From positions 1,550,001 to 1,614,000 of the forward strand of contig NZ_JAFBCR010000001.1 in assembly GCF_016907795.1 (NCBI RefSeq): DNA of 64,000 bases, read 5' to 3'. This document shows positions 4,780 to 60,089 of the stretch, one piece after another (within the stretch, counting starts at the first letter, position 1; the number at the start of each line of letters is the position of its first letter). Position numbers and translations under genes: made by a program. The notes beneath the pieces are model-generated. The model was not told the DNA's origin. It saw only the letters and a list, made by a program, of their open reading frames with translations, and did not search any database. The stretch is from Kocuria palustris. GTDB taxonomy: Bacteria; Actinomycetota; Actinomycetes; Actinomycetales; Micrococcaceae.

Positions 4780-5199
4780 TCAGGGCATCCGGCGGAACAT
4801 TCCGGTGGAGACGTCGTGCCGGTCCTGGAACCCGTGACGCGCGTACAGCCTCCGGCCCGGAGGATCGGCCATGAGGGAGACGTATGCGCCGGCTGGTGCG
4901 CGATCGGCGATCTCCTGGAGCAGCCGGGTCAGGATCGCATCACCCAGGCCCTGACGCTGATGCTGCGGATGCACGGCCATGTCCGTCACCTGGAACATCC
5001 AGCCGCCGTCGCCGATCAGACGGCCCATGCCCACGGCCGCTCCTTGGTGCGTGACATGGGCGGCGGCCCAGCCGCCTGCGACCGCGATCGCCGCCTGCTC
5101 GGGAGTGACCGGCGAGAGCCCCGCCTCCCGACGCAGCATCGCGAAGTCCTCCGCCGACGGCGCGGCCAAGTGCAGCTCATACCCGTCCGGAATCTCCAT
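4780..5199 (-). CDS. GNAT family N-acetyltransferase
   Basis: 139 residues. The acetyl-CoA loop appears as VHPQHQRQGLGDAIL (motif A, Q-x-x-G-x-G/A) and RRLYARHGFQD forms motif B. The ATG at 5199 follows a purine-rich GGGGAGGATGGGGG stretch; a GTG at 5220 is possible but has a poorer context. The substrate is unknown. Confidence 0.85.
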   Translation of the reverse strand: MEIPDGYELHLAAPSAEDFAMLRREAGLSPVTPEQAAIAVAGGWAAAHVTHQGAAVGMGRLIGDGGWMFQVTDMAVHPQHQRQGLGDAILTRLLQEIADRAPAGAYVSLMADPPGRRLYARHGFQDRHDVSTGMFRRMP

Positions 5200-5221
5200 T
5201 CCCCCATCCTCCCCTCCCACG

Positions 5222-5279
5222 CCGAGTGGATACTCAATTGCGCTATTCGGGCGGATAGCGCAACTGGGTATCCACTCGG
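5222..5279 (+). repeat. Hairpin repeat copy 1 (divergent gap)
   Basis: The arms CCGAGTGGATACTCAATTGC and its near-complement close on TATTCGGGCGGATA. It lies between divergently transcribed genes (GNAT and the winged-helix operon), a place where a terminator is not needed. Two arm positions differ. Loop orientation is the one called forward here (TRTTCG...GATA). Confidence 0.9.
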
Positions 5280-5369
5280 TGGTGGGGGTGGATGCAGGAG
5301 TGTTTCGGTTTGATCACGATCACATCGCGGGACTCGAAAGTGCAGTACTCATCTGGGCACGGTGGGGCT

Positions 5370-5675
5370 ATGGAGACACTTCCTGCGACTCCGACGGCAG
5401 ACCGGGTGACGAATGCGCTGCGCGCCGTGCAGCACATGGCGGCCCTGGGCGCCTCCCAGGAGGCCCGGGGCTGGGCCCTGCATGATGACCTCGGGATCAG
5501 CGCGGACGAGGCCCTCGAACGGCTCCGGGAGCTCGAGGACTTCGATCTGATCAAGGGGTATCGGCGATTCCTCGAGAGTCGCCGAGAGGAGAACCGGTGG
5601 TATCGGAGCACCCCTGTGGGCGAATCCGCGCTGGCCGGCCATCTGGCGGCCATGAGGCAGGACGCCCATGCGTGA
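5370..5675 (+). CDS. Small winged-helix (HTH_34-like) protein, first gene of a three-gene operon
   Basis: 101 residues. The sequence LHDDLGISADEALERLRELEDFDLI reads as the recognition-helix region. IKGYRRF..REENRWYRSTPVGESALAGHLAAM matches the wing and the C-terminal helix of the HTH_34 winged-helix family (cf. LTPxGRxAhxxHLxAL). It has no membrane segment. ATG at 5370 is chosen over an upstream ATG at 5292 because homology starts there. Its stop overlaps the next start (5668), so the operon is coupled. It probably regulates transcription; the target is unknown. Confidence 0.75.
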   Translation: METLPATPTADRVTNALRAVQHMAALGASQEARGWALHDDLGISADEALERLRELEDFDLIKGYRRFLESRREENRWYRSTPVGESALAGHLAAMRQDAHA

Positions 5676-6441
5676 GCACATGCCATCCGCCGCGGGAGAT
5701 GCGTTGACAGCACCGCGCGAGAGCTCGTGGGCTGACGTCGACGTCGCCCTGGAGCAGGCGCGACGGCGGTTGCATCCTCGCTGGTGGGCCGGCTTGCCCG
5801 AGGCCGCTCTGCTCCTGGTCGCACTCACCGCCATACTCAGCTCCGTTGCCTGGGGATGGCTGATCTTGGTCTGCATCAGCATCCTGATCATCTTCGGACG
5901 CATGCGCCCTGCTCTGGTGGGGGCCGAACACCGCTACCCCGCGTATGGCCCGGCCTCCGTCTCGCTCCTTGTGTCGAAGTCCCTCGCGCTGATCTGGATC
6001 ATCTGGGCCATCTGGAGCGTGCCGGAAGGCCGCCCGCTGGGCACATCCTTCGCGCTGGCACTCCTCACCGTGACTGTCGTCGGAATTCTCGAGCTGCTCA
6101 CCCAGCGGATGCTGGCCACCTCGATGCCCAGTGCCGGTCGGCGGTGGGCCTCCCTGGCCAGACGACCCGAACTGCATCCGGCACTTCGTGACCCGGTTGT
6201 CCTGCGGGCCATGGTGATCCTTCACCCCACACGGAAGATGCGAGTGACGCAGCTGGCCGCCGACCTGGAGCTGGACCGTGACCGCGCAGAGGCCGTTGTC
6301 GAGGACCTGGCTGGTCAGGGGCTGGTCACGCTCCGGAGGAAGATCGTCGACGGCCCCGACCGTCTCTGGGCGAGTTCCATGGGCCGCGGCCAGACAGTGC
6401 TGGAGGCGCACCTGGCAGCCATCCAGAGAGGAGCAGAATGA
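5668..6441 (+). CDS. Membrane-anchored winged-helix protein A
   Basis: 257 residues. Four hydrophobic segments lie at about 42-60, 62-80, 103-120 and 125-145. They are followed by a cytoplasmic domain (about 170-257) with LRAMVILHPTRKMRVTQLAADLELDRDRAEAVVEDL and GRGQTVLEAHLAAI, the same HTH_34-type winged helix as the preceding gene. The fusion suggests a membrane-tethered DNA-binding protein. It overlaps both neighbours (ATGCGTGA upstream, ATGA downstream). The stimulus and target are unknown. Confidence 0.75.
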   Translation: MREHMPSAAGDALTAPRESSWADVDVALEQARRRLHPRWWAGLPEAALLLVALTAILSSVAWGWLILVCISILIIFGRMRPALVGAEHRYPAYGPASVSLLVSKSLALIWIIWAIWSVPEGRPLGTSFALALLTVTVVGILELLTQRMLATSMPSAGRRWASLARRPELHPALRDPVVLRAMVILHPTRKMRVTQLAADLELDRDRAEAVVEDLAGQGLVTLRRKIVDGPDRLWASSMGRGQTVLEAHLAAIQRGAE

Positions 6442-7133
6442 CCACCGCTCAGCCCAACCCGTCTCCCGCGCAACGGCTCGGACAGCGGCTCATGCCGGGG
6501 CGGTTCGACTTCCTGGTCTTCACCCTGGCGGGGTTCTGGTATCTCCTGGCGAACTGGGCGGGTTCCCCATGGCTCATGGTGGCAGCATCCACCGTCGCCC
6601 TGATCGCAGGAGGCCTGGGCCAGTTCCTCCGTCATCGCCGCGACGGCGCGGTGGCGCACCAGCGCTTCGGCATGAATGGCCGGCTGGGCTGGGGGATCGC
6701 CGCGATCTGGCTGACAGCCGCTGTCGCCATTTTCGTCTTGGGGGTGGTCTTCGACCCGCAGGAGTGGCCGGCGTGGAGCCGGGGCGCGCTGGCCTTCGCG
6801 GTTGCCTTCGGACTTCTGATCACCGGCCGCCGATGGCTTGCCGCGCGATCTCAGCACATCGCCCAGTCCCCTGGGCCTGCATCCTCACTCCGTGCGGATC
6901 CCCGAGGGACCCCCGACGACGTTCTGTGCGATCTGCTGTCCCGTACCCAGATGATGCGCGTCGACGCCCTCTCGGTGGACCTCTCGATCCCATCCGAAGA
7001 GCTCGGCCCGCGCCTGGAGTCACTGATGGACGCTGGCGTCGTCGGCCGCAGGATGAAGGACGACGGCCCCGTAGACGACCACCATTGGGTGCACCTGAGC
7101 TTCCACGGGGAGCAGCAGCTCACCACCGCCTGA
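6438..7133 (+). CDS. Membrane-anchored winged-helix protein B
   Basis: 231 residues, built like the preceding gene. Four hydrophobic segments (about 25-43, 45-62, 83-103 and 110-128) precede a C-terminal domain (about 145-231) with DVLCDLLSRTQMMRVDALSVDLSIPSEELGPRLESL and a wing ending HHWVHLSFHGEQQL. The C-terminal helix is shorter than in the other two, so DNA binding may be weaker. It is the last gene of the operon. The two anchored paralogues suggest a heteromer, which is inference. Confidence 0.72.
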   Translation: MTTAQPNPSPAQRLGQRLMPGRFDFLVFTLAGFWYLLANWAGSPWLMVAASTVALIAGGLGQFLRHRRDGAVAHQRFGMNGRLGWGIAAIWLTAAVAIFVLGVVFDPQEWPAWSRGALAFAVAFGLLITGRRWLAARSQHIAQSPGPASSLRADPRGTPDDVLCDLLSRTQMMRVDALSVDLSIPSEELGPRLESLMDAGVVGRRMKDDGPVDDHHWVHLSFHGEQQLTTA

Positions 7134-7139
7134 CACCTC

Positions 7140-7201
7140 CGCCGAGTGGACACCCAGTTGCGCTGTTCGCCCCGATAGCGCAACTGAGCATTCACTCGGC
7201 G
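7140..7201 (+). repeat. Hairpin repeat copy 2 (tandem gap)
   Basis: Outer ends CGCCGAGTG and CACTCGGCG; inner arms AGTTGCGCTGT and ATAGCGCAACT; centre TGTTCGCCCCGATA (forward). It lies between two genes on the plus strand. Confidence 0.9.
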
Positions 7202-7228
7202 GGGTGTGGCGGGCGTAGCGTGGGAGGC

Positions 7229-8638
7229 ATGTCTGAGATGCAGCGAAGTGTCGACGTCGTCGTGGTCGGCGGCGGATCCGTGGGCGAGAACGTGGCCCAG
7301 TACGCGATCGAGGGCGGGCTGTCCGCGGCGATCGTGGAGCACGAGCTGATGGGCGGCGAGTGCTCCTACTACGCCTGCATGCCCTCGAAGGCGCTGCTGC
7401 GCCCGCTGGAAGTCGTGGCCGCCGCGCAGCACCTGCCCGGGGTGACCGGCGCGCACACGGACGCGGACGCGATGCTGGCTCGCCGCGACAGCTTCGTCTC
7501 CCACTACGACGACGCCGGCCAGGCCTCCTGGGCCGAAGGCGTCGGGGCGGCCGTCGTGCGCGGTCACGGCGAGCTGAGCGGCGAGCGTAGGGTGCGCGTG
7601 CGGGCCGGCGACGGCAGCGAGCAGACCCTGCACGCCGAGCGCGCCGTGGTGATCGCCACCGGCAGCACCGCGTCGATCCCGTCGATCTACGACGGGCTCG
7701 GTGCTTGGACCTCGCGCGATGCGACCGGCGTCCGCGAGATCCCGCAGCGCCTGGCGATCGTGGGCGGCGGTGTGGTCGCCTGCGAGGCCGCCGCCTGGAT
7801 GGCGGGGCTCGGCTCGCAAGTCACCATGCTGGTCCGCGGGGAGACGCTGCTGGGCGGCATGGAGCCGTTCGCCGGCGAGCACGTGGCGGACGGGCTGCGC
7901 CGGGCGGGGGTCGAGATCCGCTTCGGGGCCTCGGTGTCTGCGGCTTCCCGTCCCGACGTCCGCGACACCGGCCTGGGCAGGATCCACGGCGGCCCGGTCT
8001 CGCTGTCGCTGGGCGACCACGAGCTCGAGGTCGACGAGCTGCTCGTGGCCACCGGGCGCCGACCGGCGCTGGAAGCCGTGGGGCTCGAGGCCGTGGGCCT
8101 GAGCGCCGAGGACGTGCTCGAAGGGCGCCTGCCGTCGTGGCTCCACAGCGTGGGCGATGCCTCCGGCGCCGCCATGCTCACCCACACCGGCAAGCACGAC
8201 GCCCGTGTGCTCGGCTCCCGCCTGGCCGCTGAGGCCGGGATGGCGCCCGCCGAGACGCCCGAGCCCCAGGACGTCCCCGTGCCGCAGGTGGTCTTCACCG
8301 ACCCGCAGGTCGCCGCCGTGGGATGCACCGAGGCGCAGGCCCGCGAGAGCGGTCTCGATGTCGTGGTCGCGCAGGTGCCATACGGATCCGCGGCCGGATC
8401 GGCGCTGCTGCGCGACGACGTCGACGGCACCGCCCAGCTCGTGGTCGACCGCGGCGCGGGAGTCGTGGTGGGTGCGACTTTCGTGGGCCCGGAGGCCGCC
8501 GAGCTGCTGCACGCTGCCACGATCGCGATCGTGGGCCGGGTTCCGGTGTCCCTGCTGCGCCATGCCGTCCCGGCCTATCCCACGGTCTCGGAGCTGTGGC
8601 TGCGCCTGCTGGAGGAGCTCCCCCGCGACCTCCGCTGA
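7229..8638 (+). CDS. FAD-dependent pyridine nucleotide-disulfide oxidoreductase (Lpd/MerA-like)
   Basis: 469 residues, the usual length. The FAD motif VVVGGGSVGENVA is at the N-terminus. The redox-active pair is GGECSYYACMPSK (C-x4-C, about residues 46-51). The NAD(P) motif is AIVGGGVVACEAAAWM, and the second FAD contact is LHSVGDASG. The C-terminal interface reads PAYPTVSE where dihydrolipoamide dehydrogenases have the HPT/S-x-x-E His-Glu pair, so the His base is replaced by Tyr. Lipoamide dehydrogenase activity is therefore doubtful and a quinone- or disulfide-type reductase is more likely. GGGAGG precedes the ATG at 7229. Confidence 0.85.
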   Translation: MSEMQRSVDVVVVGGGSVGENVAQYAIEGGLSAAIVEHELMGGECSYYACMPSKALLRPLEVVAAAQHLPGVTGAHTDADAMLARRDSFVSHYDDAGQASWAEGVGAAVVRGHGELSGERRVRVRAGDGSEQTLHAERAVVIATGSTASIPSIYDGLGAWTSRDATGVREIPQRLAIVGGGVVACEAAAWMAGLGSQVTMLVRGETLLGGMEPFAGEHVADGLRRAGVEIRFGASVSAASRPDVRDTGLGRIHGGPVSLSLGDHELEVDELLVATGRRPALEAVGLEAVGLSAEDVLEGRLPSWLHSVGDASGAAMLTHTGKHDARVLGSRLAAEAGMAPAETPEPQDVPVPQVVFTDPQVAAVGCTEAQARESGLDVVVAQVPYGSAAGSALLRDDVDGTAQLVVDRGAGVVVGATFVGPEAAELLHAATIAIVGRVPVSLLRHAVPAYPTVSELWLRLLEELPRDLR

Positions 8639-8668
8639 CCCCAGCCCCGCCCACCCCGCCCCCTCCTC

Positions 8669-8728
8669 GCCGAGTAGATACCCAATTGCGCTGTTCAGGC
8701 TGATAGCGCAACGGGGTATCCACTCGGC
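8669..8728 (+). repeat. Hairpin repeat copy 3 (tandem gap)
   Basis: Arms begin GCCGAGTAGATACCCAATTG; centre TGTTCAGGCTGATA (forward). One outer and two inner positions mismatch. It lies between the oxidoreductase gene and ldh, both on the plus strand. Confidence 0.88.
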
Positions 8729-8860
8729 CGAGCGGGAGCGGGGCGCAGTGTGGGTTCATGCTTGAATGAGACGTGAACGGGACATAATCCCTCCGCACAG
8801 CTGACAGAAAACCACGACAACCCCACACGAAACGACATGCCCTCCTCGTAGCGTGAAGGC

Positions 8861-9811
8861 ATGAACAGGAACTCGAAACTCACCGTCGTCGGAGCCGGAG
8901 CCGTCGGATCGAGCGTGGCCTACGCCGCCATGATCCGCGGATCCGCCCGCCACATCGCCCTCTACGACATCGCCGCCGAGAAGACCGAGGCCGAGGTGCT
9001 CGACCTCGCCCACGGCAGCCAGTTCACCGGCGGAACCGACATCGTCGGCAGCAGCGATATCGAGGTCGCTCGCGACTCGGACATCGTCGTCATCACCGCC
9101 GGCGCCAAGCAGAAGCCGGGGCAGTCCCGCCGCGAGCTCGCCGACACCAACGCCCGGATCACCCGCACCCTGATGGAGCAGCTGCTGTCGGTGGCCCCGG
9201 AGGCCGTCTACGTCATCGTCACCAACCCGTGCGATCCCATGGCCATGGTCGCCCAGGAGTTCTCCGGTCTGCCGGCCAACCAGGTCTTCTCCTCCGGCAC
9301 CACGCTGGACACCTCCCGACTGCGGTGGCTGCTGGCGGACCGGGCCGATGTGTCGCGCACGAGCGTGCACGCGCACATCGTCGGCGAGCACGGCGACTCC
9401 GAGTTCGCCCTGTGGTCCACTGCCTCGATCGGCACCGTGCCGATCCTGGAGTGGACCCGCGACGGGCAGAAAGTCTTCACCCGCGAATCCCTCGACGCCC
9501 TGACCGACGAGGTCCGGGGCGCGGCCTACAAGGTCATCCAGGGCAAGGGCGCCACCAACTACGCGATCGGGCTGTCGAGCGCGCGCATCGTCGAGGCCGT
9601 GCTCGGGGCGCAGAACGCCGTGCTCAACGTGGCCCCGGTGCTCTCCGACTTCCAGGGGATCGACGGCGTCGCCTTGTCGGTGCCGTGCATCGTCGGCGAG
9701 GACGGCGCCTTCCCCATCCGCGAGACCCCGTTCTCCGACGACGAGCTGACCAAGCTGCGGGACTCCGCCGAGACGCTGCGCGAGGTCGTCGACGGCCTCA
9801 GTGCCGGCTGA
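8861..9811 (+). CDS. ldh: L-lactate dehydrogenase (NAD-dependent)
   Basis: 316 residues. The Rossmann motif VVGAGAVGSSVAYA, the substrate loop GQSRRELADTN with its Arg, the TNPCDPMAMVAQ segment and the catalytic IVGEHGDSE with His all fit L-lactate dehydrogenase rather than malate dehydrogenase. It interconverts pyruvate and L-lactate in the cytoplasm. A lactate permease gene follows after one hairpin repeat, so the pair forms a lactate module. A CATAAT at 8783-8788 may be the -10 element. Confidence 0.92.
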   Translation: MNRNSKLTVVGAGAVGSSVAYAAMIRGSARHIALYDIAAEKTEAEVLDLAHGSQFTGGTDIVGSSDIEVARDSDIVVITAGAKQKPGQSRRELADTNARITRTLMEQLLSVAPEAVYVIVTNPCDPMAMVAQEFSGLPANQVFSSGTTLDTSRLRWLLADRADVSRTSVHAHIVGEHGDSEFALWSTASIGTVPILEWTRDGQKVFTRESLDALTDEVRGAAYKVIQGKGATNYAIGLSSARIVEAVLGAQNAVLNVAPVLSDFQGIDGVALSVPCIVGEDGAFPIRETPFSDDELTKLRDSAETLREVVDGLSAG

Positions 9812-9824
9812 GCCGCACCCCCGT

Positions 9825-9886
9825 CGCCGAGTGGATACCCAGTTGCGCTATCCGAGCGAACAGCGCAACTGAGTATCCACTCGGCG
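9825..9886 (-). repeat. Hairpin repeat copy 4 (between ldh and lldP)
   Basis: Arms start CGCCGAGTGGATACCCAGTT; centre TATCCGAGCGAACA, the reverse orientation of copies 1-3. It sits in the 151-bp gap inside the lactate module. Confidence 0.92.
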
Positions 9887-9962
9887 GGGTGGGGGTGGGG
9901 GTTCGACGCCCACCGCCCCCGCACTCGATCGCGCCCTCCCTCCAACCCGGAAGACCTCTCCC

Positions 9963-11564
9963 ATGTGGACCCAGAACATCGACCCACTGGGCAGCCTCGC
10001 CCTGTCTGCGATCGTGGCCGCCCTGCCCATCCTCGTCTTCCTGCTGTGCATGATGGCGCTGAAGCTCTCCGGGCTGACATCCGGGATCATCGCGCTCGTC
10101 CTGCAGGTCATCGTCTCCGTGGCCGTGTTCGGAATGCCCGTCTCCGCCGCTGGCGGCGCGGGACTGCTGGGGCTGCTCACGGCCCTGTGGCCGATCGCGT
10201 ACATCGTGGTCATGGCCGTGTGGCTCTACCGGATCACCGTGCGCTCAGGACGGTTCGACGTCATCCGCTCCTCGATCGCCGGCGTCTCCGATGACCAGCG
10301 CGTCCAGGTCCTGCTGATCTCCTTCGCCTTCGGCTGCTTTCTCGAGGGCGTGGCCGGCTTCGGCGTGCCGATCGCGATCTGCGCAGCGCTGCTCGTGCAG
10401 CTGGGCTTCAAGCCGGTGCGCGCCGCCGTCCTGTCCCTGGTGGGCAACGTGGCCGCCGGCGCCTACGGGGCCATCGGCCTCCCCGTGCTCGTGGGTGCGC
10501 AGGTCACCGGGCTGGAGGTCCACGAGCTGTCCCGAGCCCTGGTGCTGCTGCTGCAGCCCCTGACCTTCCTGGTCCCCTTCCTCATGGTCCTCATGCTCGG
10601 CGGGCTGCGCAGCCTGCGCGAGACCTGGCCCGCAGCGCTCGTGGTGTCGCTGGCCTTCAATCTGGTTCAGGGCGGGCTGCTGTGGTTCGTGGGTCCCGAG
10701 CTCGCCGACCTGGCGGCCGGACTGGTCGGCATGGTGGCCCTCATGGGGCTGTCGCGGATCTGGAAGCCGTCGCGGATCTCCCGTCCGGAGGGCGCCCCGG
10801 AGCCCGACGGCACCCGGACGACGGCCCGCGACGTCCTGGTCGCCTGGAGCCCCTTCTACATCCTCTCGATCCTCATGCTGATCTGGTCCGTCCCGGCGGT
10901 GAAGGCGCTGTTCTCGACCGGCGCGCTCAGCGCCACCACCTTCCAGGTGCCCATGCCGGGGCTCACCGGCCAGGTCATCGCCGCCTCCGGTGCGGTCGTG
11001 GAGGCCACCTGGTCGTTCTCGATCCTGGGCGCCACCGGCACCGCGATCCTGATCGCCGTGATCCTGAGCTTCCTGAGCACCCCGCAGGTCGACGCCAAGG
11101 CGCTTTTCGAGGAGCTGCGCACCACGCTGACCTCGCTCGGCCCGGCGATCGCGCTGATCGCCGTCATCCTGGTGCTGGCCAACCTGGCCAACTACTCCGG
11201 CGGCTCCACGGCCATGGGGCAGGCGCTGGCCGCCGTCGGCCCGATCTTCCCGCTGATTGCCCCGATCATCGGCTGGATCGGCGTGTTCCTCACCGGCTCG
11301 GTGACCAACAACAACACCCTGTTCGGGCCGCTGCAGTTCGCCACGGCGGAGGGCATCGGAGCGGCTCCAGCAACCCTGGTCGGCGCCAACACCGCAAGCG
11401 GCACCACGGCAAAGGTCGTCTCGCCGCAGTCGATCGCCATCGCCGCCGGCGCCGTGGGGCTCTCCGGGCGCGAGGCCGAGATCCTGCGCGGCTCCATCGG
11501 CTACAGCTTGGGCATGCTGGGGTTCATGTGCCTGTGGAGCTTCGCGCTGGCAGCCCTGCTCTGA
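9963..11564 (+). CDS. lldP: L-lactate permease
   Basis: 533 residues with about 12-14 membrane segments. Family signatures include FAFGCFLEGVAGFGVPIAIC, GAIGLPVLVG, and the late GVFLTGSVTNNNTLFGPLQ with GANTASGTTAKVVSPQSIAI. LctP/LldP carriers bring in L-lactate, D-lactate or glycolate with protons. The gene directly follows ldh. Confidence 0.94.
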   Translation: MWTQNIDPLGSLALSAIVAALPILVFLLCMMALKLSGLTSGIIALVLQVIVSVAVFGMPVSAAGGAGLLGLLTALWPIAYIVVMAVWLYRITVRSGRFDVIRSSIAGVSDDQRVQVLLISFAFGCFLEGVAGFGVPIAICAALLVQLGFKPVRAAVLSLVGNVAAGAYGAIGLPVLVGAQVTGLEVHELSRALVLLLQPLTFLVPFLMVLMLGGLRSLRETWPAALVVSLAFNLVQGGLLWFVGPELADLAAGLVGMVALMGLSRIWKPSRISRPEGAPEPDGTRTTARDVLVAWSPFYILSILMLIWSVPAVKALFSTGALSATTFQVPMPGLTGQVIAASGAVVEATWSFSILGATGTAILIAVILSFLSTPQVDAKALFEELRTTLTSLGPAIALIAVILVLANLANYSGGSTAMGQALAAVGPIFPLIAPIIGWIGVFLTGSVTNNNTLFGPLQFATAEGIGAAPATLVGANTASGTTAKVVSPQSIAIAAGAVGLSGREAEILRGSIGYSLGMLGFMCLWSFALAALL

Positions 11565-11577
11565 CCCCTTCCCCTCC

Positions 11578-11639
11578 CGCCGAGTGGATGCTCAGTTGCG
11601 CTATCGGGGCGAACAGCGCAACTGGGGATCCGCTCGGCG
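11578..11639 (-). repeat. Hairpin repeat copy 5 (convergent gap)
   Basis: Outer ends CGCCGAG and CTCGGCG; centre TATCGGGGCGAACA, whose reverse complement equals the centre of copy 2. It lies between lldP and a convergent membrane-protein gene. Confidence 0.9.
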
Positions 11640-11653
11640 AGGTGGGGCGCGGA

Positions 11654-12247
11654 TCAGGGGGCTCCTGGTCCGGGAGGCGTCTCGGAGAGCACCAGCTCCG
11701 ACCCGATCACGCCGTCGAGCATCCCCGGCCCGATCGGGTCGCCCGTGCGGATCACGCTGAGGCCGCCGGTGGACTCCAGGATCACGCACTGGACCTGGTC
11801 CTGGTGCGAGATCCCGCGATGGCGCAGCACGCCGTACACCTCGCGCGGGGTGAGGTGGGTGCGCCGCAGGGCGGAGTCCACGAACCGGCCGTGGGCCATG
11901 ATCACCCGGGGCCGCGTGCGCAACCCGGGTACGCCGGCGGCCTGCTGAACCGCGCCGAAGGCCGCCTCCAGCAGCAGGAGAGTGAGCAGCCCGATCGCCC
12001 CTGCCGCCAGCGTGGGCGGGTGGCCGATGATCACGCGTCCCGCCACCGATCCGAGCATGATCAGCACGACGGCGTCGAACCCCGTCCAGCCCGAGAGCAC
12101 CCGCACGCCGAACACGCGGACCAGCAGCAGGAAGATCAGGTAGATTCCGATCGCCGAGGCCACGACCACGGGGATGCGCCACAGCTCGATCCCCAGGTGG
12201 TCGATGAATGCCTGCGTCCAGCCGCCCGGTGGTGTCATGCCCTCCAT
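11654..12247 (-). CDS. YetF/YcaP-type (DUF421) membrane protein
   Basis: 197 residues from the ATG at 12247 (MEGMTPPGG); an ATG at 12238 is an alternative with GGAGGG almost touching it. Three membrane segments (about 27-95) precede a small cytoplasmic domain with RTRPRVIMAHGRFVDSALRR and SHQDQVQCVILESTGGLSVI, the hallmarks of DUF421 proteins. Function in the family is poorly known, with links to envelope and spore properties in Bacillus. Confidence 0.82.
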   Translation of the reverse strand: MEGMTPPGGWTQAFIDHLGIELWRIPVVVASAIGIYLIFLLLVRVFGVRVLSGWTGFDAVVLIMLGSVAGRVIIGHPPTLAAGAIGLLTLLLLEAAFGAVQQAAGVPGLRTRPRVIMAHGRFVDSALRRTHLTPREVYGVLRHRGISHQDQVQCVILESTGGLSVIRTGDPIGPGMLDGVIGSELVLSETPPGPGAP

Positions 12248-12303
12248 CTTGGCCGATGGCGTGCGACCGTCATCGCTCCTCCGTCGCCATCCCCTCCTCA
12301 CCC

Positions 12304-12365
12304 CGCCGAGTGGATCCCCAGTTGCGCTGTTCGGGCGGACAGCGCAACTGGGGATCCGCTCGGCG
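12304..12365 (+). repeat. Hairpin repeat copy 6 (divergent gap)
   Basis: The best-paired copy: the inner arms GGATCCCCAGTTGCGCTGT and their complement match perfectly, with one T/C difference near the outer end. Centre TGTTCGGGCGGACA (forward). It lies between divergent genes, less than 25 bp from the ATG of the MazG-like gene. Confidence 0.92.
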
Positions 12366-12386
12366 GGGGTTTGCTACGTTGACCGC

Positions 12387-12707
12387 ATGCCTGCCGATGA
12401 CGTGATGCCGCAGCTGCGGGAATTCGTCCGCGAGCGCGACTGGGCGCAGTTCCACTCCCCCGAGAACCTGGCCAAGTCCATCAGCATCGAGGCCGCCGAG
12501 CTGCTCGAGTGCTTCCAGTGGTCCGGCCAGGCGGACCAGGCCGAGGTGGAGGCCGAGCTCGCCGACGTCCTGACGTACGCGTATCTGCTAGCCGATCGCC
12601 TGGGGGTCGATCCGCACGAGATCATGCGGCAGAAGCTGGCCGTGACCGAGCAGAAGTACCCGGTCGAGAAGGCCCGCGGCAGGAGCACCAAGCATGACCG
12701 GCTCTGA
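12387..12707 (+). CDS. MazG-like nucleotide pyrophosphohydrolase
   Basis: 106 residues, the size of single-domain MazG-like enzymes. The metal-binding EAAE (35-38) with E41 and ELAD (57-60) reproduce the E-x-x-E ... E-x-x-D pattern. Enzymes of this type hydrolyse NTPs or dNTPs to monophosphates, cleaning non-canonical or excess nucleotides. The stop overlaps the next start by 14 nt, so it is coupled to the helicase gene. Only 21 bp separate it from hairpin repeat copy 6, leaving little room for a separate promoter. Confidence 0.88.
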   Translation: MPADDVMPQLREFVRERDWAQFHSPENLAKSISIEAAELLECFQWSGQADQAEVEAELADVLTYAYLLADRLGVDPHEIMRQKLAVTEQKYPVEKARGRSTKHDRL

Positions 12708-14460
12708 GGGCTCCGTCGTTCCGTTCACGATCGAGCGGATGCCGTTCACCGCCCAGGCCATCGATCGCGGCGGCCTGGAGATGGAGATGTTCCGGGACTG
12801 GCCGATCGTCTATCTGCTGGACGACGCCCGCCGGGTCTACGTCGGCGAATCCCTGCACGGCGTCTCCAGGATGCGCCAGCACCAGGCCTCCGAGGCCAAG
12901 CAGGGCATGCGCACCCTGCGACTGGTGCTCAGCGAGATGTTCAACAAGTCCGTGTGCCTGGATCTCGAGTCCACGCTGATCCGCCTCTTCCAGGGCGACG
13001 GCAGCTTCCACGTCGTCAATCGCAATATCGGGATCGTCGACGCCGGCTATTACCAGCGCGAGCGCTACCGAGAGGCCTTCCGCGAGATCTTCGAGGAGCT
13101 GCGCGCCGGCGGCATGTTCCAGCGGACGATCCCGCAGATCGAGAACAGCGAGCTCTACAAGTTCTCGCCGTTCAAGACGCTCACCGCGGATCAGGCGGTC
13201 GCCGTCGGGGAGATCGTGGAATCCCTGCTGCAGGACTTCGAGTCCGACGACGGCGGCATCAGCATCATCCAGGGCGATCCCGGGACCGGGAAGACCATCG
13301 TCGCGGTTTATCTGCTCAAGCTCCTGTCGGATATCGCCGCATATCAGGACGGCGATGAGGCCGACCCTGAGGAGATGTTCTCCGAGCATTTCGACGAGAG
13401 CACCCGGGATCTCATGGCTGATCGGAGGATGGCGTTCGTCGTCCCGCAGGAATCGCTGCGTCACGCCATTCAGAGCGTGTTCTCCCGGCTTCCGTCGATG
13501 TCCGAGGTGAAGGTCCTGACGGCCTTCGAGGTCGGCGAGAGCGAGGAGGACTTCGATCTCGTGATCGTGGACGAGGCGCACCGGTTGAACCAGTACGCCA
13601 TGCAGGCCCACGGCACGCAGCTGAAGCGATTCCGGGATATCACCACGAAGCTCTTCGGGCATCTCGATGAGGACAAGAACCAGCTCGACTGGGTCCGCGC
13701 CAAGTCCAGGCACGTGGTGCTGATGCTGGACCTGCACCAGAGCGTCCGGCCTGCGGACATCCCCCGCGCCGAGCTGGAGGCCGTCGTCGGGCAGGCGCGC
13801 GAGCGCGGCCGGGTCCACCCCCTGCACACCCAGATGCGGGCCGCAGGCGGCAACGACTACATCGCCTACGTGCGGGATCTGATGGCCGGGCGGTCCCCTG
13901 AGCGTCGGCTCAGCTTCGGCGAGTACGAGTTCACCATGTTCGACGACGCCGGGGCCCTCAAGAATCGCATCGAAGCGCTGGAGCCCGAATACGGGCTGTG
14001 CCGGATGACTGCGGGATTCGCCTGGCCGTGGCGCTCGAATCCTCGCGGCAAGATCCGGGCAGATCACGACTTCGAACTGGACGGCACAGCGTTCCGCTGG
14101 AACTCCGTGACCACGGACTGGGTCAACTCCCCCAAGGCCCCGTCGGAGGTCGGCTCGATCCACACCCTGCAGGGCTACGACCTCAACTACGCCGGGGTGA
14201 TCATCGGCCCGGAGCTGCGCTTCGATCCCGACGAGCAGCGGCTGTGGGTCGATCGGGCGCACTACGCGGACCGCAACGGCAAGATCGACAACAGGCTGCG
14301 CGGCCAGACGACGACCGACGACGATCTCCTGCACTACGTGACCAACGCCTATGCCGTGCTGCTGACCCGCGGCATGCGAGGAACGATCGTCTACGTCTGC
14401 GATCCGCAGCTGCGCCGCCACCTGGAGCGCTTCATCCCCAAGGCCGCCCCGCTTCCCTGA
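12694..14460 (+). CDS. GIY-YIG nuclease domain fused to DUF2075 (Schlafen-type) helicase
   Basis: 588 residues. The GIY-YIG domain (about 36-125) shows VYLLDD, VYVGES, the Arg in SRMRQH and the catalytic Glu in DLESTLI. The superfamily-1-like ATPase follows: Walker A GDPGTGKT (about 194-201), Walker B DLVIVDEAH (about 288-296), sensor LDLHQS, and C-terminal motifs SIHTLQGYDLNYAGVIIG and YAVLLTRGMRGTIVYV typical of DUF2075. All key residues are present, so it should be an active nuclease-ATPase. Coupling to a MazG-like gene suggests a nucleic-acid or phage-stress function, which is inference. Confidence 0.88.
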   Translation: MTGSEGSVVPFTIERMPFTAQAIDRGGLEMEMFRDWPIVYLLDDARRVYVGESLHGVSRMRQHQASEAKQGMRTLRLVLSEMFNKSVCLDLESTLIRLFQGDGSFHVVNRNIGIVDAGYYQRERYREAFREIFEELRAGGMFQRTIPQIENSELYKFSPFKTLTADQAVAVGEIVESLLQDFESDDGGISIIQGDPGTGKTIVAVYLLKLLSDIAAYQDGDEADPEEMFSEHFDESTRDLMADRRMAFVVPQESLRHAIQSVFSRLPSMSEVKVLTAFEVGESEEDFDLVIVDEAHRLNQYAMQAHGTQLKRFRDITTKLFGHLDEDKNQLDWVRAKSRHVVLMLDLHQSVRPADIPRAELEAVVGQARERGRVHPLHTQMRAAGGNDYIAYVRDLMAGRSPERRLSFGEYEFTMFDDAGALKNRIEALEPEYGLCRMTAGFAWPWRSNPRGKIRADHDFELDGTAFRWNSVTTDWVNSPKAPSEVGSIHTLQGYDLNYAGVIIGPELRFDPDEQRLWVDRAHYADRNGKIDNRLRGQTTTDDDLLHYVTNAYAVLLTRGMRGTIVYVCDPQLRRHLERFIPKAAPLP

Positions 14461-14478
14461 GACCTTCCCACCCCACCC

Positions 14479-14539
14479 CGCCGAGTGGGTACCCAGTTGC
14501 GCTATAGCAGCGAACAGCGCAACTCAGTGTCCACTCGGC
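14479..14539 (-). repeat. Hairpin repeat copy 7 (convergent gap, overlaps a stop codon)
   Basis: Centre TATAGCAGCGAACA (reverse). The left arm is CGCCGAGTGGGTACCCAGTT. The right arm supplies the last codons and the TGA of the convergent minus-strand gene (protein end PSGH). Confidence 0.9.
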
Positions 14540-15240
14540 AGGAGGAGGGGGAAGAGGGCGACGACGGCGAAGGCGAGGCCCGCCAGCACCAGCCCCCACC
14601 CCAGCAGCGGGCGCAGATCGCGGTGCGTCACCCAGTCGTAGACCGCGGTGACCCTCCGTGCGGCCGTCGGGACGCGCGGCCACGCCCAGGCCGCGAGCAG
14701 ATACGGGCCCACGAGCGTCAGCAGGAACGGCAGGTACGCCACGGCCTGCCACGCGATGTCATGGCTGAGCCCCGTGAGCATGCGTCCCACGACATACATC
14801 GTCGCGAAGCCGCTGAAGCCCAGGAACGTGTTCACGAACCCGACCCCGGCCATGCGCAGCCGGTCCTCATGCGGAACCGTGCTCGGCGCGGGCTTGGAGG
14901 CACGCGGCCGTCGGGCCCATCGCAGCACCACTGCCCCGGCCACCAGGAACACGGCGGCGGCCACGAGGTCCACGGCGCGGCGGATGAGCACGGCCTCGAC
15001 ATCGCTGCGGGCGTCGTCGATCCAGGTGCTCGGATCCACGGTGCGGAAGGCGAGCAGCATGACCGTGGAGCCGACCGCGAGCCCCGCGGCCATGGCGGCG
15101 ATCGGCGGCTCGGGCCGGTTCGTGCGCGTGAGCGCCCTCAAGGTGGCCCCGTAGAGCGTGGGGCTGAACCCCACGACGAGGCCCAGCCCCAGCAGCATCG
15201 GCGTCGCCGCGACGACGGCTGCGATCTCAGTCCACCCCAT
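14524..15240 (-). CDS. Six-segment membrane protein, possibly GAP/LysE-like superfamily
   Basis: 238 residues with about six hydrophobic segments (near 10-28, 45-63, 85-107, 125-145, 155-178 and 205-228). The opening MLLGLGLVVGFSPTLYGATL and the overall layout resemble the GAP (Sap) addressing proteins of the LysE superfamily, but I cannot confirm the family. The last five codons and the stop lie inside hairpin repeat copy 7, so the repeat has probably set the present C-terminus. Confidence 0.65.
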   Translation of the reverse strand: MGWTEIAAVVAATPMLLGLGLVVGFSPTLYGATLRALTRTNRPEPPIAAMAAGLAVGSTVMLLAFRTVDPSTWIDDARSDVEAVLIRRAVDLVAAAVFLVAGAVVLRWARRPRASKPAPSTVPHEDRLRMAGVGFVNTFLGFSGFATMYVVGRMLTGLSHDIAWQAVAYLPFLLTLVGPYLLAAWAWPRVPTAARRVTAVYDWVTHRDLRPLLGWGLVLAGLAFAVVALFPLLLPSGH

Positions 15241-15254
15241 GCGCCCAGTGTCCC

Positions 15255-15316
15255 CGCCGAGTGGATCCCCAGTTGCGCTATCGAGCCGAATAACGCAACT
15301 GGGTATCCACTCGGCG
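15255..15316 (-). repeat. Hairpin repeat copy 8 (tandem gap)
   Basis: Outer ends CGCCGAGTGG and CCACTCGGCG pair perfectly; centre TATCGAGCCGAATA (reverse). It lies between selO and the membrane-protein gene, both on the minus strand. Confidence 0.92.
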
Positions 15317-15330
15317 GGAGAGGGGGAGGG

Positions 15331-16818
15331 TCAGGTGCCGCAGTAGGTGGTGAACGGGCGGGCGCCAGGGGCCGTGCCCGAGGACTCCAGGCCCGCGAAG
15401 TCCACGTGCTCCTGGAACGGAGAGCGCACCGCGGCCAGCAGCCGCTCGTACGCAGTGAGATCCCCCGCCTCCGCGCGATCCAAAGCGTGCTGCAGGTGGT
15501 GGTTGCGCGGGATGTAGACCGGGTTCACCGAGGCCATGAGGTCGCGCTGCTGCTCCGCCGACGGATCGCCGAACCGGGTCAGCAGGTCGCGGCGCTCGGA
15601 GTCCCAGGCCCGGAAGGCCGCGGCGTCGTCGAACAGCGACTCCGCGGCCCCGAAGGCGAGCGCGCGGAAGAACGCCGTGAAATCCTGCCGGTTCTCCTGC
15701 AGCAGCCCGAAGGTCCGCTCCACGAACGCGTCCAGCGCCGAGAGCGCGGCATCGCGCTCCTCATCCGGCAGCCCGTCGACGTCGAGCCCGATCTTGCGCC
15801 CCATCCCCCGCGAGAGCGCCTCCCGGAAGGCCGGCGCGTACTCGTGGAGCACCTCGGTCACGGCCTCCACGCCGGCGTCGGGATCATCCGGCGCCACAAG
15901 GTCCACGAGCGACTCCGCGAACCGCGACAGGTTCCACAGCCCGATCTCCGCCTGGCGCCCGTAGGCGTAGCGCGCCCCGCGATCGATCGAGCTGAACACT
16001 GCCCCCAGGGAGAACTCGTCCACGAATGCGCAGGGCCCGTAGTCGATGGTCTCCCCGGAGATCGTCATGTTGTCCGTGTTCATGACCCCGTGCACGAACC
16101 CCACGAGCATCCACTGCGCGATCAGCCGCGCCTGCGCGTGCACCACGCTGCGCAGCAGCTCGAGCGGCGGATTCTCCGACGACGCCGCCTCGGGCCAGTG
16201 CCGCTGGATCGCATAGTCCGCCAGCTCCCGCCGGGTCTCGACCGAGCGCTGCGTGGCCGCGAACTCGAAGGTCCCCACCCGCAGGTGGCTGGCGGCCACG
16301 CGGGTGAGGATCGCTCCGGGCTCCGGGTCGGGCCCGTTGCGCTGGATCCGCTCGCCGGTGCTCACGACGGCCAGCCCGCGCGTGGTGGGGATGCCGAGGG
16401 CGTGCATGGCCTCGCCCATCAGGTGCTCGCGCAGCATGGGTCCCAGGGGAGCCTTGCCGTCGCCGCCGCGGGAGAACGGGGTGCGCCCGGAGCCCTTCAG
16501 ATGCAGGTCGCGACGGCGGCCGTCGGAGTCCACGAGCTCGCCGAGCAGCAGCGCGCGGCCATCGCCGAGCACCGGATTGAACTGCCCGAACTGATGCCCC
16601 GAGTAGGCCTGCGCGTACATGGTCTCGGCGGTGTCGCCACTGAGCAGCGCGAGACCCTCCGGCGAGCGCAGCCAGTCCGGGTCCAGTCCGAGCTCCCGGG
16701 CCAGCTCGTCGTTCACGACGACAGCGCGCGGGTCCCGCACCGGAGCCGCCGACCACTCCCGGGAGAGATCGGGCAGGGCTGCGGCGTAGGTGTGCTCGAA
16801 GGATGGGGAAGCGACCAT
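15331..16818 (-). CDS. selO: Protein adenylyltransferase SelO (YdiU)
   Basis: 495 residues, standard for the family. Visible are YSGHQFGQFNPVLGDGRALLLGE, the kinase-like Lys in DLHLKGSGRTPFSRGGDGKA, the HGVMNTDNMTISGETIDYGPCAFVD catalytic and metal loop, and the C-terminal YCGT with the conserved Cys that is selenocysteine in animals. SelO AMPylates proteins using a pseudokinase fold and is linked to redox stress. ATG at 16818 is chosen as the start of homology (VASPSFEHTYAAAL). Confidence 0.93.
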   Translation of the reverse strand: MVASPSFEHTYAAALPDLSREWSAAPVRDPRAVVVNDELARELGLDPDWLRSPEGLALLSGDTAETMYAQAYSGHQFGQFNPVLGDGRALLLGELVDSDGRRRDLHLKGSGRTPFSRGGDGKAPLGPMLREHLMGEAMHALGIPTTRGLAVVSTGERIQRNGPDPEPGAILTRVAASHLRVGTFEFAATQRSVETRRELADYAIQRHWPEAASSENPPLELLRSVVHAQARLIAQWMLVGFVHGVMNTDNMTISGETIDYGPCAFVDEFSLGAVFSSIDRGARYAYGRQAEIGLWNLSRFAESLVDLVAPDDPDAGVEAVTEVLHEYAPAFREALSRGMGRKIGLDVDGLPDEERDAALSALDAFVERTFGLLQENRQDFTAFFRALAFGAAESLFDDAAAFRAWDSERRDLLTRFGDPSAEQQRDLMASVNPVYIPRNHHLQHALDRAEAGDLTAYERLLAAVRSPFQEHVDFAGLESSGTAPGARPFTTYCGT

Positions 16819-20059: not shown

Positions 20060-20086
20060 GCCGACGGCAGCGCTGAACGCCCCTCC

Positions 20087-20123
20087 GCAGGAGGCGGGTC
20101 TCACATCGAGACCCGCCTCCTGC
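20087..20123. terminator. 16-bp stem terminator
   Basis: GCAGGAGGCGGGTCTC (20087-20102), loop ACATC, then the perfect complement (20108-20123). It ends the remnant gene upstream. Confidence 0.85.
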
Positions 20124-20209
20124 GCCGTTGCGGGCCCCTGCCCCGCGGATACGCTGGATGCCCGCATCGCAGCCCGTCCTTCGCGATGCCACCAGGAGGA
20201 ACCCCCACC

Positions 20210-36220: not shown

Positions 36221-36264
36221 GAAGGCGGTTCCGGTGAACCTGCAGGTTCACCGGAACCGCCTTC
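36221..36264. terminator. Perfect 44-bp palindrome, terminator
   Basis: Each arm is 22 nt with no spacer (GAAGGCGGTTCCGGTGAACC, TG at the centre, and the complement). As RNA it would form an 18-20 bp stem with a 4-nt loop. It starts 28 bp after the dehydrogenase stop and has no T-tract. Confidence 0.88.
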
Positions 36265-37718: not shown

Positions 37719-37762
37719 CCCAGTCTTCTCCAAGTCCTGATTGGGACTTGGAGAAGACTGGG
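37719..37762. terminator. 19-bp stem bidirectional terminator
   Basis: CCCAGTCTTCTCCAAGTCC (37719-37737), loop TGATTG, and the perfect complement (37744-37762), between convergent genes. Confidence 0.88.
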
Positions 37763-41887: not shown

Positions 41888-41945
41888 TCGAGTGGCCGAT
41901 TGCTCACCGTTTCGTCGCTGAAACGGTGAGCAATCGGCCACTCGA
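41888..41945. terminator. Perfect 26-bp stem palindrome between convergent genes
   Basis: The arm begins TCGAGTGGCCGATTGCTCAC and ends CGTTTC; the loop is GTCGCT; the second arm is the exact complement. Sequence resembling half of the arm recurs just outside (GAGTGGCC near 41965-41972 on the minus strand, CTGGCCGAAACG near 41862). The outer CGAGTGG is shared with the 5-15 kb repeats. Confidence 0.9.
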
Positions 41946-47817: not shown

Positions 47818-47865
47818 GACTGTCACATCTGCTGCAACAGCAACGTTGCAGCAGATGTGACAGTC
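47818..47865. terminator. Perfect 21-bp stem bidirectional terminator
   Basis: GACTGTCACATCTGCTGCAA plus C, loop AGCAAC, and the exact complement; between convergent dehydratase and exonuclease genes. Confidence 0.9.
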
Positions 47866-54375: not shown

Positions 54376-54432
54376 CGAGGGGTCGCTGACGCCGTCTTTC
54401 AGCCACTGGAAGACGGCATCAGCGACCCCTCG
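54376..54432. repeat. Terminator-like hairpin (family with 27581-27634)
   Basis: CGAGGGGTCGCTGACGCCGT (54376-54395) with CTT pairs with AAGACGGCATCAGCGACCCC and TCG. One C/T difference. It closes the copper operon. Confidence 0.75.
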
Positions 54433-55727: not shown

Positions 55728-55765
55728 ACGACGACGGCCCCGGCAGATGCCGGGGCCGTCGTCGT
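55728..55765. terminator. 18-bp stem terminator
   Basis: ACGACGACGGCCCCGGCA, GA, and the exact complement (55748-55765), between convergent genes. Confidence 0.9.
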
Positions 55766-59117: not shown

Positions 59118-59174
59118 GATCCTCAAAGCCGCCTCAGCTTTTTTCGCCGCGGAACTCGACCGCCCCACGACGAG

Positions 59175-60089
59175 ATGATCGCGTTCATCGATATGCATCG
59201 TGATCAGTTCGGGGTCGAGGCCATCTGCCGCACGCTGGCTGCGACAGACTGTGGGTTCATCACCTCGCGCGGCTACCGCCCCGCGAAGACCAGGCCCGCC
59301 TCTGAGCGGTCTGTGCGAGACGCGATGCTCGGGCAGGAGATCAGGCGGGTCCATGTCGAGAACTACAGCGTCTACGGCGTCAGGAAGATGCACCAGGCCA
59401 TGCGTCGGGCCAGCTGGGAGATCGGCCGGGACCAAGTAGCCCGCCTCATGCGTGCCGCCGGGCTGCAGGGCGTGAGGCGAGGGCGCAAGCCGATCACGAC
59501 GAAGCCTGCCCGCGAGCCGGATGCCCGCCCTGACATGGTCGAGCGCCGCTTCACGGCGGATCGGCCGCATCGGCTCTGGGTCGCTGACATCACCTACGTG
59601 AGGATCCTGGGCGGGTTCTGCTACGTCGCGTTCATCACCGACGTCTACTCCCGGCGCATCGTCGGGTGGGCCGTCTCGGGCAGCCTTCACACTGCGGGGC
59701 TGCCGTTGCTGGCCCTGGAGCACGCGCTGTTGAGCACGGGAGCCAGCCGGGGCCGGGAAGGTCTGGTCCATCACTCAGACCGCGGCTCCCAGTACGTCTC
59801 TCTGGCGTATTCGGACGCGCTCATCACCGCCGGGGTGAGCGCCTCGGTGGGCACCGTGGGCGACTCCTACGACAACGCCCTGGCCGAGACCGTGAACGGG
59901 CTCTACACGGCCGAACTCATTCACGCCAAGCGGATCTGGGAGTCCGTCGAGGCGGTCGAGCTGGCCACGATGGGGTGGGTGCACTGGTGGAACACGGCCC
60001 GCCTCCATGAAGCCCTCGGCTACTGCACTCCCGCGGAGGTCGAGGCGGCCTACACTCACGACCAGGATTCAGCGCCCGTTGCGTCCTGA
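59175..60089 (+). CDS. IS3-family transposase OrfB
   Basis: 304 residues from an ATG after the orfA frame. HTH_21-like YGVRKMHQAMRRASWEIGRDQVARLMRAAGL; rve domain with WVADITYV (Asp), HHSDRGSQYVS (Asp) and NALAETVNGLYTAELI (Glu). Intact catalytic core. Normally made as an OrfAB fusion, which is now impossible because orfA is split. Confidence 0.93.
   Translation: MIAFIDMHRDQFGVEAICRTLAATDCGFITSRGYRPAKTRPASERSVRDAMLGQEIRRVHVENYSVYGVRKMHQAMRRASWEIGRDQVARLMRAAGLQGVRRGRKPITTKPAREPDARPDMVERRFTADRPHRLWVADITYVRILGGFCYVAFITDVYSRRIVGWAVSGSLHTAGLPLLALEHALLSTGASRGREGLVHHSDRGSQYVSLAYSDALITAGVSASVGTVGDSYDNALAETVNGLYTAELIHAKRIWESVEAVELATMGWVHWWNTARLHEALGYCTPAEVEAAYTHDQDSAPVAS

Follow-up and report, generated by a model that had tools for sequence, protein, structure and literature searches.

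Dispersed palindromes of Kocuria palustris are probably copies of an element built around an AbiEi-Vsr-type nuclease gene

The window analyzed here is a 64,000-nucleotide stretch of Kocuria palustris contig NZ_JAFBCR010000001.1 (positions 1,550,001 to 1,614,000, forward strand), and our subject is a palindrome family in it, termed F1, together with the predicted nuclease gene with which F1 is associated elsewhere on the chromosome. Eight near-perfect F1 palindromes of 62 bp, all in gaps between genes, span positions 5220 to 15316 of the window. Copies 1 (5220..5281), 2 (7140..7201), 3 (8668..8729), and 6 (12304..12365) are in the forward orientation, and copies 4 (9825..9886), 5 (11578..11639), 7 (14479..14540), and 8 (15255..15316) are in the reverse orientation. 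Two gaps are divergent (copies 1 and 6), two are convergent (copies 5 and 7), and four are tandem (copies 2, 3, 4, and 8), with copy 4 lying between genes for L-lactate dehydrogenase and lactate permease. The surrounding genes are ordinary: besides these two, they encode a flavin-dependent disulphide-reductase-like protein, a DUF421 protein, a Schlafen-group helicase-like protein, SelO, and some proteins without a family. An earlier note on this DNA had reported eight copies with a common outer arm, an orientation for each, and gaps of all three types. All eight copies are present, with two of the reported starts (5222 and 8669) falling 2 bases and 1 base inside them; the three gap types are as claimed, and the assigned orientations yield an alignment free of gaps. 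A 20-base outer arm was found with at most 3 mismatches in 15 of the 16 arms, the right arm of copy 7 having more than 3, against 0.02 matches expected from shuffled sequence. As also reported, no more matches to this arm occur between 15.3 and 64 kb of the window. An Rfam scan gave no match at the eight hairpins. Integron-like gene cassettes were considered and rejected: the reductase, lactate dehydrogenase, and permease genes stand in the same order in the relative G026 without these palindromes between them.

A covariance model built from the eight copies gave 66 matches, on both strands and at 34 places, in the 2.9-Mb chromosome, so the family is not confined to a 10-kb block as had been proposed. 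Nor is it evenly spread. When places were collapsed to 31, 8 of them fell in 10.1 kb, where the maximum among 20,000 random trials was 5, and 17 neighbouring gaps measured 5 kb or less, where 1.6 were expected. The idea of local spread thus holds for the clumping and fails for the restriction to one region. A second clump of six copies lies at 2.818-2.831 Mb, and tandem arrays of 2-4 copies stand behind the 5S gene of each of the three ribosomal RNA (rRNA) operons. A script run on the fetched stretches extracted 36 F1 copies, and each of the 36 has the same layout of two 24-base arms, 12 bases apart. Lone half-sites were sought and discarded as a category, all 57 of the arms found falling within the 36 copies. 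With arrays counted once and gap types assigned by a home-made gene caller, the 30 F1 loci comprise 16 convergent gaps (3 of them rRNA ends), 8 tandem gaps, and 6 divergent gaps. An IS110-family transposase gene (L079, 4429-5652) directly adjoins the F1 array behind one rRNA operon, and two adjacent tandem genes at L075 4772-7245 are ~76% identical in DNA. One small gene (PF14013; 92% identical) has such a palindrome upstream of it in two genomes, namely, the copy at 426266 of the source genome of the window (G000; the G-numbered genomes are one per species) and the sole F1-like copy found in G024 (L107, 6988-7053).

Conservation within F1 is concentrated in two parts of the stem. Across the 36 copies, the positions of CGAGTGG carry 0-3 mismatches each and those of TTGC none, the eight positions between them carry 5-20, and the outermost two carry 9-10. 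In copies oriented by their centre, G-T mismatches (44) and A-C mismatches (35) are about equally frequent. This pattern resembles a pair of protein contacts on duplex DNA more closely than selection on an RNA strand, and without a clear strand asymmetry the earlier suggestion of a structured RNA is not supported. A longer stem, in which the left flank (C-rich) would pair with the right one (G-rich), was also rejected: 6.39 of 14 positions pair, compared with 6.01 when partners are swapped, which is within the range of 2,000 swaps, and composition therefore explains the flank pairing.

Outside the window, in the second F1 clump, a gene at G000:C1:2830077-2831024 has F1 palindromes on both sides. 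The protein of this F1 partner gene is predicted to consist of an AbiEi-type two-domain half and a Vsr/homing-endonuclease-type half (Vsr/EDxHD fold), the latter resembling structures 3r3p_A and 1cw0_A in Foldseek searches. MTES_1575 matched 17 of 17 members at E-values of up to 1 (best, 1.9e-6), and DUF559 matched 10 of 17. P0001 is neighboured by a DUF488 gene and a short-chain dehydrogenase gene. No adjacent gene for an AbiEii nucleotidyltransferase toxin was present at the two loci tested (P0001 and the G007 element), no P0001 homologue was found in phages, and no intron or intein context was seen at the loci read. Homologues occur in 23 of 27 genomes of the genus, which for the relatives compared is probably Kocuria, and those in G001 and G024 adjoin those genomes' own palindrome families. 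The partner gene is absent from the same interval of G026, a relative labelled K. palustris in the analysis, which has a homologue elsewhere. In the open-licence papers searched, none linked AbiEi-Vsr nucleases with dispersed palindromes.

In a flank test of whether homologous genes are bracketed by palindromes, the 270 bases upstream of a gene were searched for their best local match to the region surrounding and following its stop. The match was scored in both orientations because a palindrome must match in both. For the genus, 56 matches led to 50 fetched loci (two matches fell in one locus, and five places were left out), of which 8 without a tblastn match at 1e-2 were dropped, leaving 42. 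At a score of 20, 21 of these 42 nuclease genes passed, compared with 12 of 347 controls (Fisher p 3.5e-15); these other genes came from palindrome-rich loci, not from a random gene sample, and some were counted twice. Ten of the 12 passing controls lie in two palindrome-dense blocks of G000, the nuclease gene itself included, and 2 lie in G024. At 21 bracketed loci, the distance from the 5' copy to the gene is 48-214 bases, and the 3' copy lies between 50 bases inside the gene end and 57 bases after the stop; in G007 the bracketing copies are identical over 60 bases. With a stricter hairpin finder, 10 of the 40 full-length genes of the genus had a palindrome on each side, as did 2 of 79 neighbours; these controls, too, came from palindrome-rich loci and included some genes twice. 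The wider set comprised 30 loci, taken from 103 matches in 17 genomes of the order picked for palindrome richness, and 3 plasmid loci. Here 15 of 33 nuclease loci passed at a score of 18, compared with 0 of 41 other genes (p 5.7e-7), or 12 of 30 without the plasmids, and the hairpin finder, covering 28 of the 30 loci, recovered both sides in 5 of 28 and in 0 of 34 controls. The Arthrobacter plasmid loci had been chosen by protein only, and all 3 are bracketed; one plasmid palindrome family was found, among 72,556 records, only in two plasmids of its own strain. The score thresholds were set after the scores were known, and gene calls and hairpin finding were home-made. In many genomes, matching palindrome copies stand on both flanks of the gene. 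Beside some of these loci we also observed that TCCACAG recurs near the gene-side end of the 5' palindrome (L283, L284, L289, and L306), and that at L324 and L341 the nuclease gene lies between long repeats that match each other in a single orientation (scores, 80 and 100), those of L324 being ~145 bases long.

Palindromes built in the same way, on different stem sequences, occur in relatives. The F1 covariance model found matches in 11 of 59 genomes, and a pattern made of the outer eight bases only, CGCCGAGT...ACTCGGCG, matched in 13 of the 27 genus genomes and in 87 of 396 genomes of the order, the source genome being included in each count. The reversed pattern gave 0-2 matches per genome, and many of the single matches to the pattern look like coding sequence or chance. 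In the richest genomes there are 11-21 pattern matches with genome-specific stems, mostly of 62, 63, or 74 bp. No F1 copy was found in G026 genome-wide by either the covariance model or the pattern, nor was there one in the region syntenic to 2.815-2.833 Mb or behind sdaA. Behind its rRNA operon, the G026 contig ends 92 bases after the 5S gene and so does not reach the ~115 bases at which the G000 copies sit. G026 has a palindrome family of its own, of similar length, with three copies in 21.6 kb. In the empty-site comparison, the intergenic junctions were too diverged to align, and the search for an exact empty junction gave none. Other species have gene 3'-end hairpins at the orthologous positions, with stems that differ. 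One and the same gap, behind a short-chain dehydrogenase gene, holds a palindrome in four species (L243 3370-3430, L239 9281-9345, L240 1721-1779, and L241 1896-1958), with GAACCCTC as its outer and ATCA as its inner part and a mid-stem that varies between species with pairing kept. A class of 73-74 bp (G101, G181, G195, G257, and G309) contains a unit beginning CGAGT twice per arm, ~18-19 bases apart.

The palindrome families vary together with the nucleases. For seven families (F1-F6 and F8), the interior 22 bases, which leave out the common ends, were matched against the flanking sequence of the 42 readable loci. The best-matching 5' flank lies in the same genome for F1-F6, and the 3' flank wins for F2-F6. 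The rank correlation between the identity of the nucleases and the similarity of the palindromes is 0.41 over 25 bracketed loci, a value reached by 0 of 5,000 permutations, and the nearest nuclease is also the nearest palindrome in 7 of the 25, with approximately 1 expected. At a syntenic place in G007 and G018, a palindrome, a nuclease gene, and a second palindrome lie between genes for an aquaporin-type protein and a glutathione peroxidase. The nucleases of the two species are 58% identical there and the neighbours 70-96%; most of the palindrome stem differs between the species, and the two palindromes within each species agree. At the same place G024 has the nuclease, one palindrome that was found, and no left gene, and no nuclease match was found at this place in G000, G026, G001, or G004.

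On this evidence, we think that the eight hairpins of the window are probably stand-alone copies of an element whose full form is palindrome, AbiEi-Vsr nuclease gene, palindrome. Several observations weigh against this. The flank test was failed by 21 of the 42 genus homologues and by 18 of the 33 in the wider set, and two full-length homologues of the source genome itself (L307 and L316) are without such flanks. The 3' copy of the F1 partner is diverged and loses its comparison, and family F8 of G007 has no partner by the 42-locus flank comparison. No target duplication is visible beside the 21 bracketed loci, and the intergenic junctions of the empty-site comparison are too diverged to read. 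The Foldseek E-values are weak. The catalytic residue of the nuclease motif is usually Glu, and this position is Gln in 15 of the 17 aligned members; nuclease activity is therefore a prediction.

The pairing of palindrome and gene is shown, and beyond it we infer binding, cutting, and mobility. In such a mechanism, the AbiEi halves of two protein molecules would bind the palindrome, as duplex DNA, at its two arms of ~24 bp, and the nuclease half would cut at or near the site. Repair, or a step resembling transposition, might then place a copy of the palindrome, with or without the gene, in another gap or in place of a diverged one, and copies would persist where they are least harmful, mainly behind genes. 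This model would account for the dispersal, the clumping, the sameness within species, the change between species, and the bracketing. It draws on what is known of AbiEi and its relatives: AbiEi binds a pair of 23-bp inverted repeats separated by 3 bp, and Rv2827c binds pairs of 23-bp repeats separated by 13 bp (PMC7319586). The 24-12-24 layout of F1 is close to 23-13-23. The suggestion in the earlier note of a protein-binding array comes close, the palindrome appearing from sequence to be tied to the gene of an AbiEi-type DNA-binding nuclease.

The same background would fit an operator, and we regard this as the best of three unlikely alternatives. The palindromes would be sites at which the AbiEi half acts as a repressor, both of its own gene and of further ones; the dispersed copies would form a regulon or titrate the protein, and the nuclease would act elsewhere, for example, on foreign DNA. 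AbiEi antitoxins do repress their own promoter via paired inverted repeats (PMC7319586), and at the 21 bracketed loci a palindrome stands 48-214 bases before the gene. However, the gene has a matching copy at its 3' end as well, the rRNA operons are followed by tandem arrays, and a promoter would not be expected in the convergent gaps that make up 16 of the 30 F1 loci. Slightly more doubtful still is a use by the host at 3' ends, as repeated bidirectional terminators or protectors of mRNA ends that the nuclease gene would have like other genes. The earlier note had held that simple termination does not explain the copies. In agreement with it, a terminator scan of window positions 5000-16000 gave 2 terminator-like sites, none at any copy (shuffles give 1.9), a hairpin followed by a T-run was found at 0 of the 8 copies, and 6 of the 30 loci are divergent; against it, the 16 convergent loci, 3 of them behind rRNA operons, make a 3'-end role possible, as does the finding that 3'-end hairpins with different stems recur at the orthologous positions of other species. 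The mismatches show no strand asymmetry, and host use would not lead one to expect copies of one sequence throughout a genome or families each paired with its own nuclease. Non-autonomous repeats of a known transposase, either of the repetitive extragenic palindrome (REP) type with its REP-associated tyrosine transposase (RAYT) or miniature inverted-repeat transposable elements (MITEs) of a DDE insertion sequence, share the RAYT/REP anatomy but are very improbable, given that Y1_Tnp (PF01797) was detected in 0 of 7 Kocuria genomes (control genomes, 5 of 14 positive; DDE transposases were not searched for), that no target duplication was seen beside the 21 bracketed loci, and that the bracketed gene belongs to another superfamily.

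The element proposed here, a nuclease gene between two palindromes, is close to RAYT/REP in its apparent way of working. According to PMC2817692, the RAYT gene is flanked by two palindromes, with dispersed copies and co-varying families. RAYT/REP (REPIN) systems and the element thus have in common a single gene between two palindromes, numerous stand-alone copies that occupy gene gaps and clusters, co-varying palindrome and enzyme families, and palindromicity that is kept where the sequence changes at orthologous places. In contrast, the enzyme here combines AbiEi-type and Vsr-type nuclease halves, whereas RAYT is a Y1 tyrosine transposase, and the palindromes here are 58-74 bp long, with no GTAG or CGTC tag seen. 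Of the REP/MITE-like nature proposed earlier, the dispersed and clumped palindrome stands; REP in the strict sense fails for want of a Y1 transposase, and a MITE is not demonstrated, no target duplication having been seen. Type IV AbiE toxin-antitoxin systems share the AbiEi-like two-domain half, with arms and spacing near the 23-bp paired repeats of AbiEi relatives, but here this half is fused to a nuclease, no AbiEii neighbour is present at the two loci tested, and the sites are dispersed. The nuclease half is like those of Vsr-type homing endonucleases (I-Bth0305I) and MTES_1575/DUF559 nucleases; unlike homing endonucleases, the gene is not in an intron or intein at the loci read and is bracketed by palindromes. 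We set the element apart as a new kind, since for every known kind either a feature that was tested is lacking or confirmation could not be had.

A second palindrome family is also present in the window. A 58-bp palindrome lies at 41888..41945, apart from the eight, and its family also flanks an intact nuclease gene in G026 (L288) and a 164-residue remnant in the source genome (L319). If the palindromes belong with the nucleases as proposed, this copy may have outlived its nuclease. Other long hairpins in the window, not of F1 sequence, lie at 20086-20124, 36221-36264, 37719-37762, 47818-47865, 54376-54432, and 55728-55765 (stem scores, 17-22), and an Rfam ALIL pseudoknot match (57.5 bits) lies at 59136-59243.

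On balance we lean towards an undescribed class of selfish DNA in Micrococcales, in which an AbiEi-Vsr fusion would recognise its own 58-74-bp palindrome, cut, and thereby spread and homogenise it, lineages changing both together, as a convergent counterpart of RAYT/REP without a transposase. If this is true, the dispersed palindromes of high-GC Gram-positive bacteria would gain an enzyme, REP-like repeat families would have arisen at least twice with unrelated proteins, and many "hypothetical" AbiEi/DUF559/MTES_1575 proteins would gain a role. The loci would supply many natural pairs of palindrome and putative binder in which co-evolution can be read, and the question whether a nuclease alone can drive the concerted evolution of short repeats would become testable.
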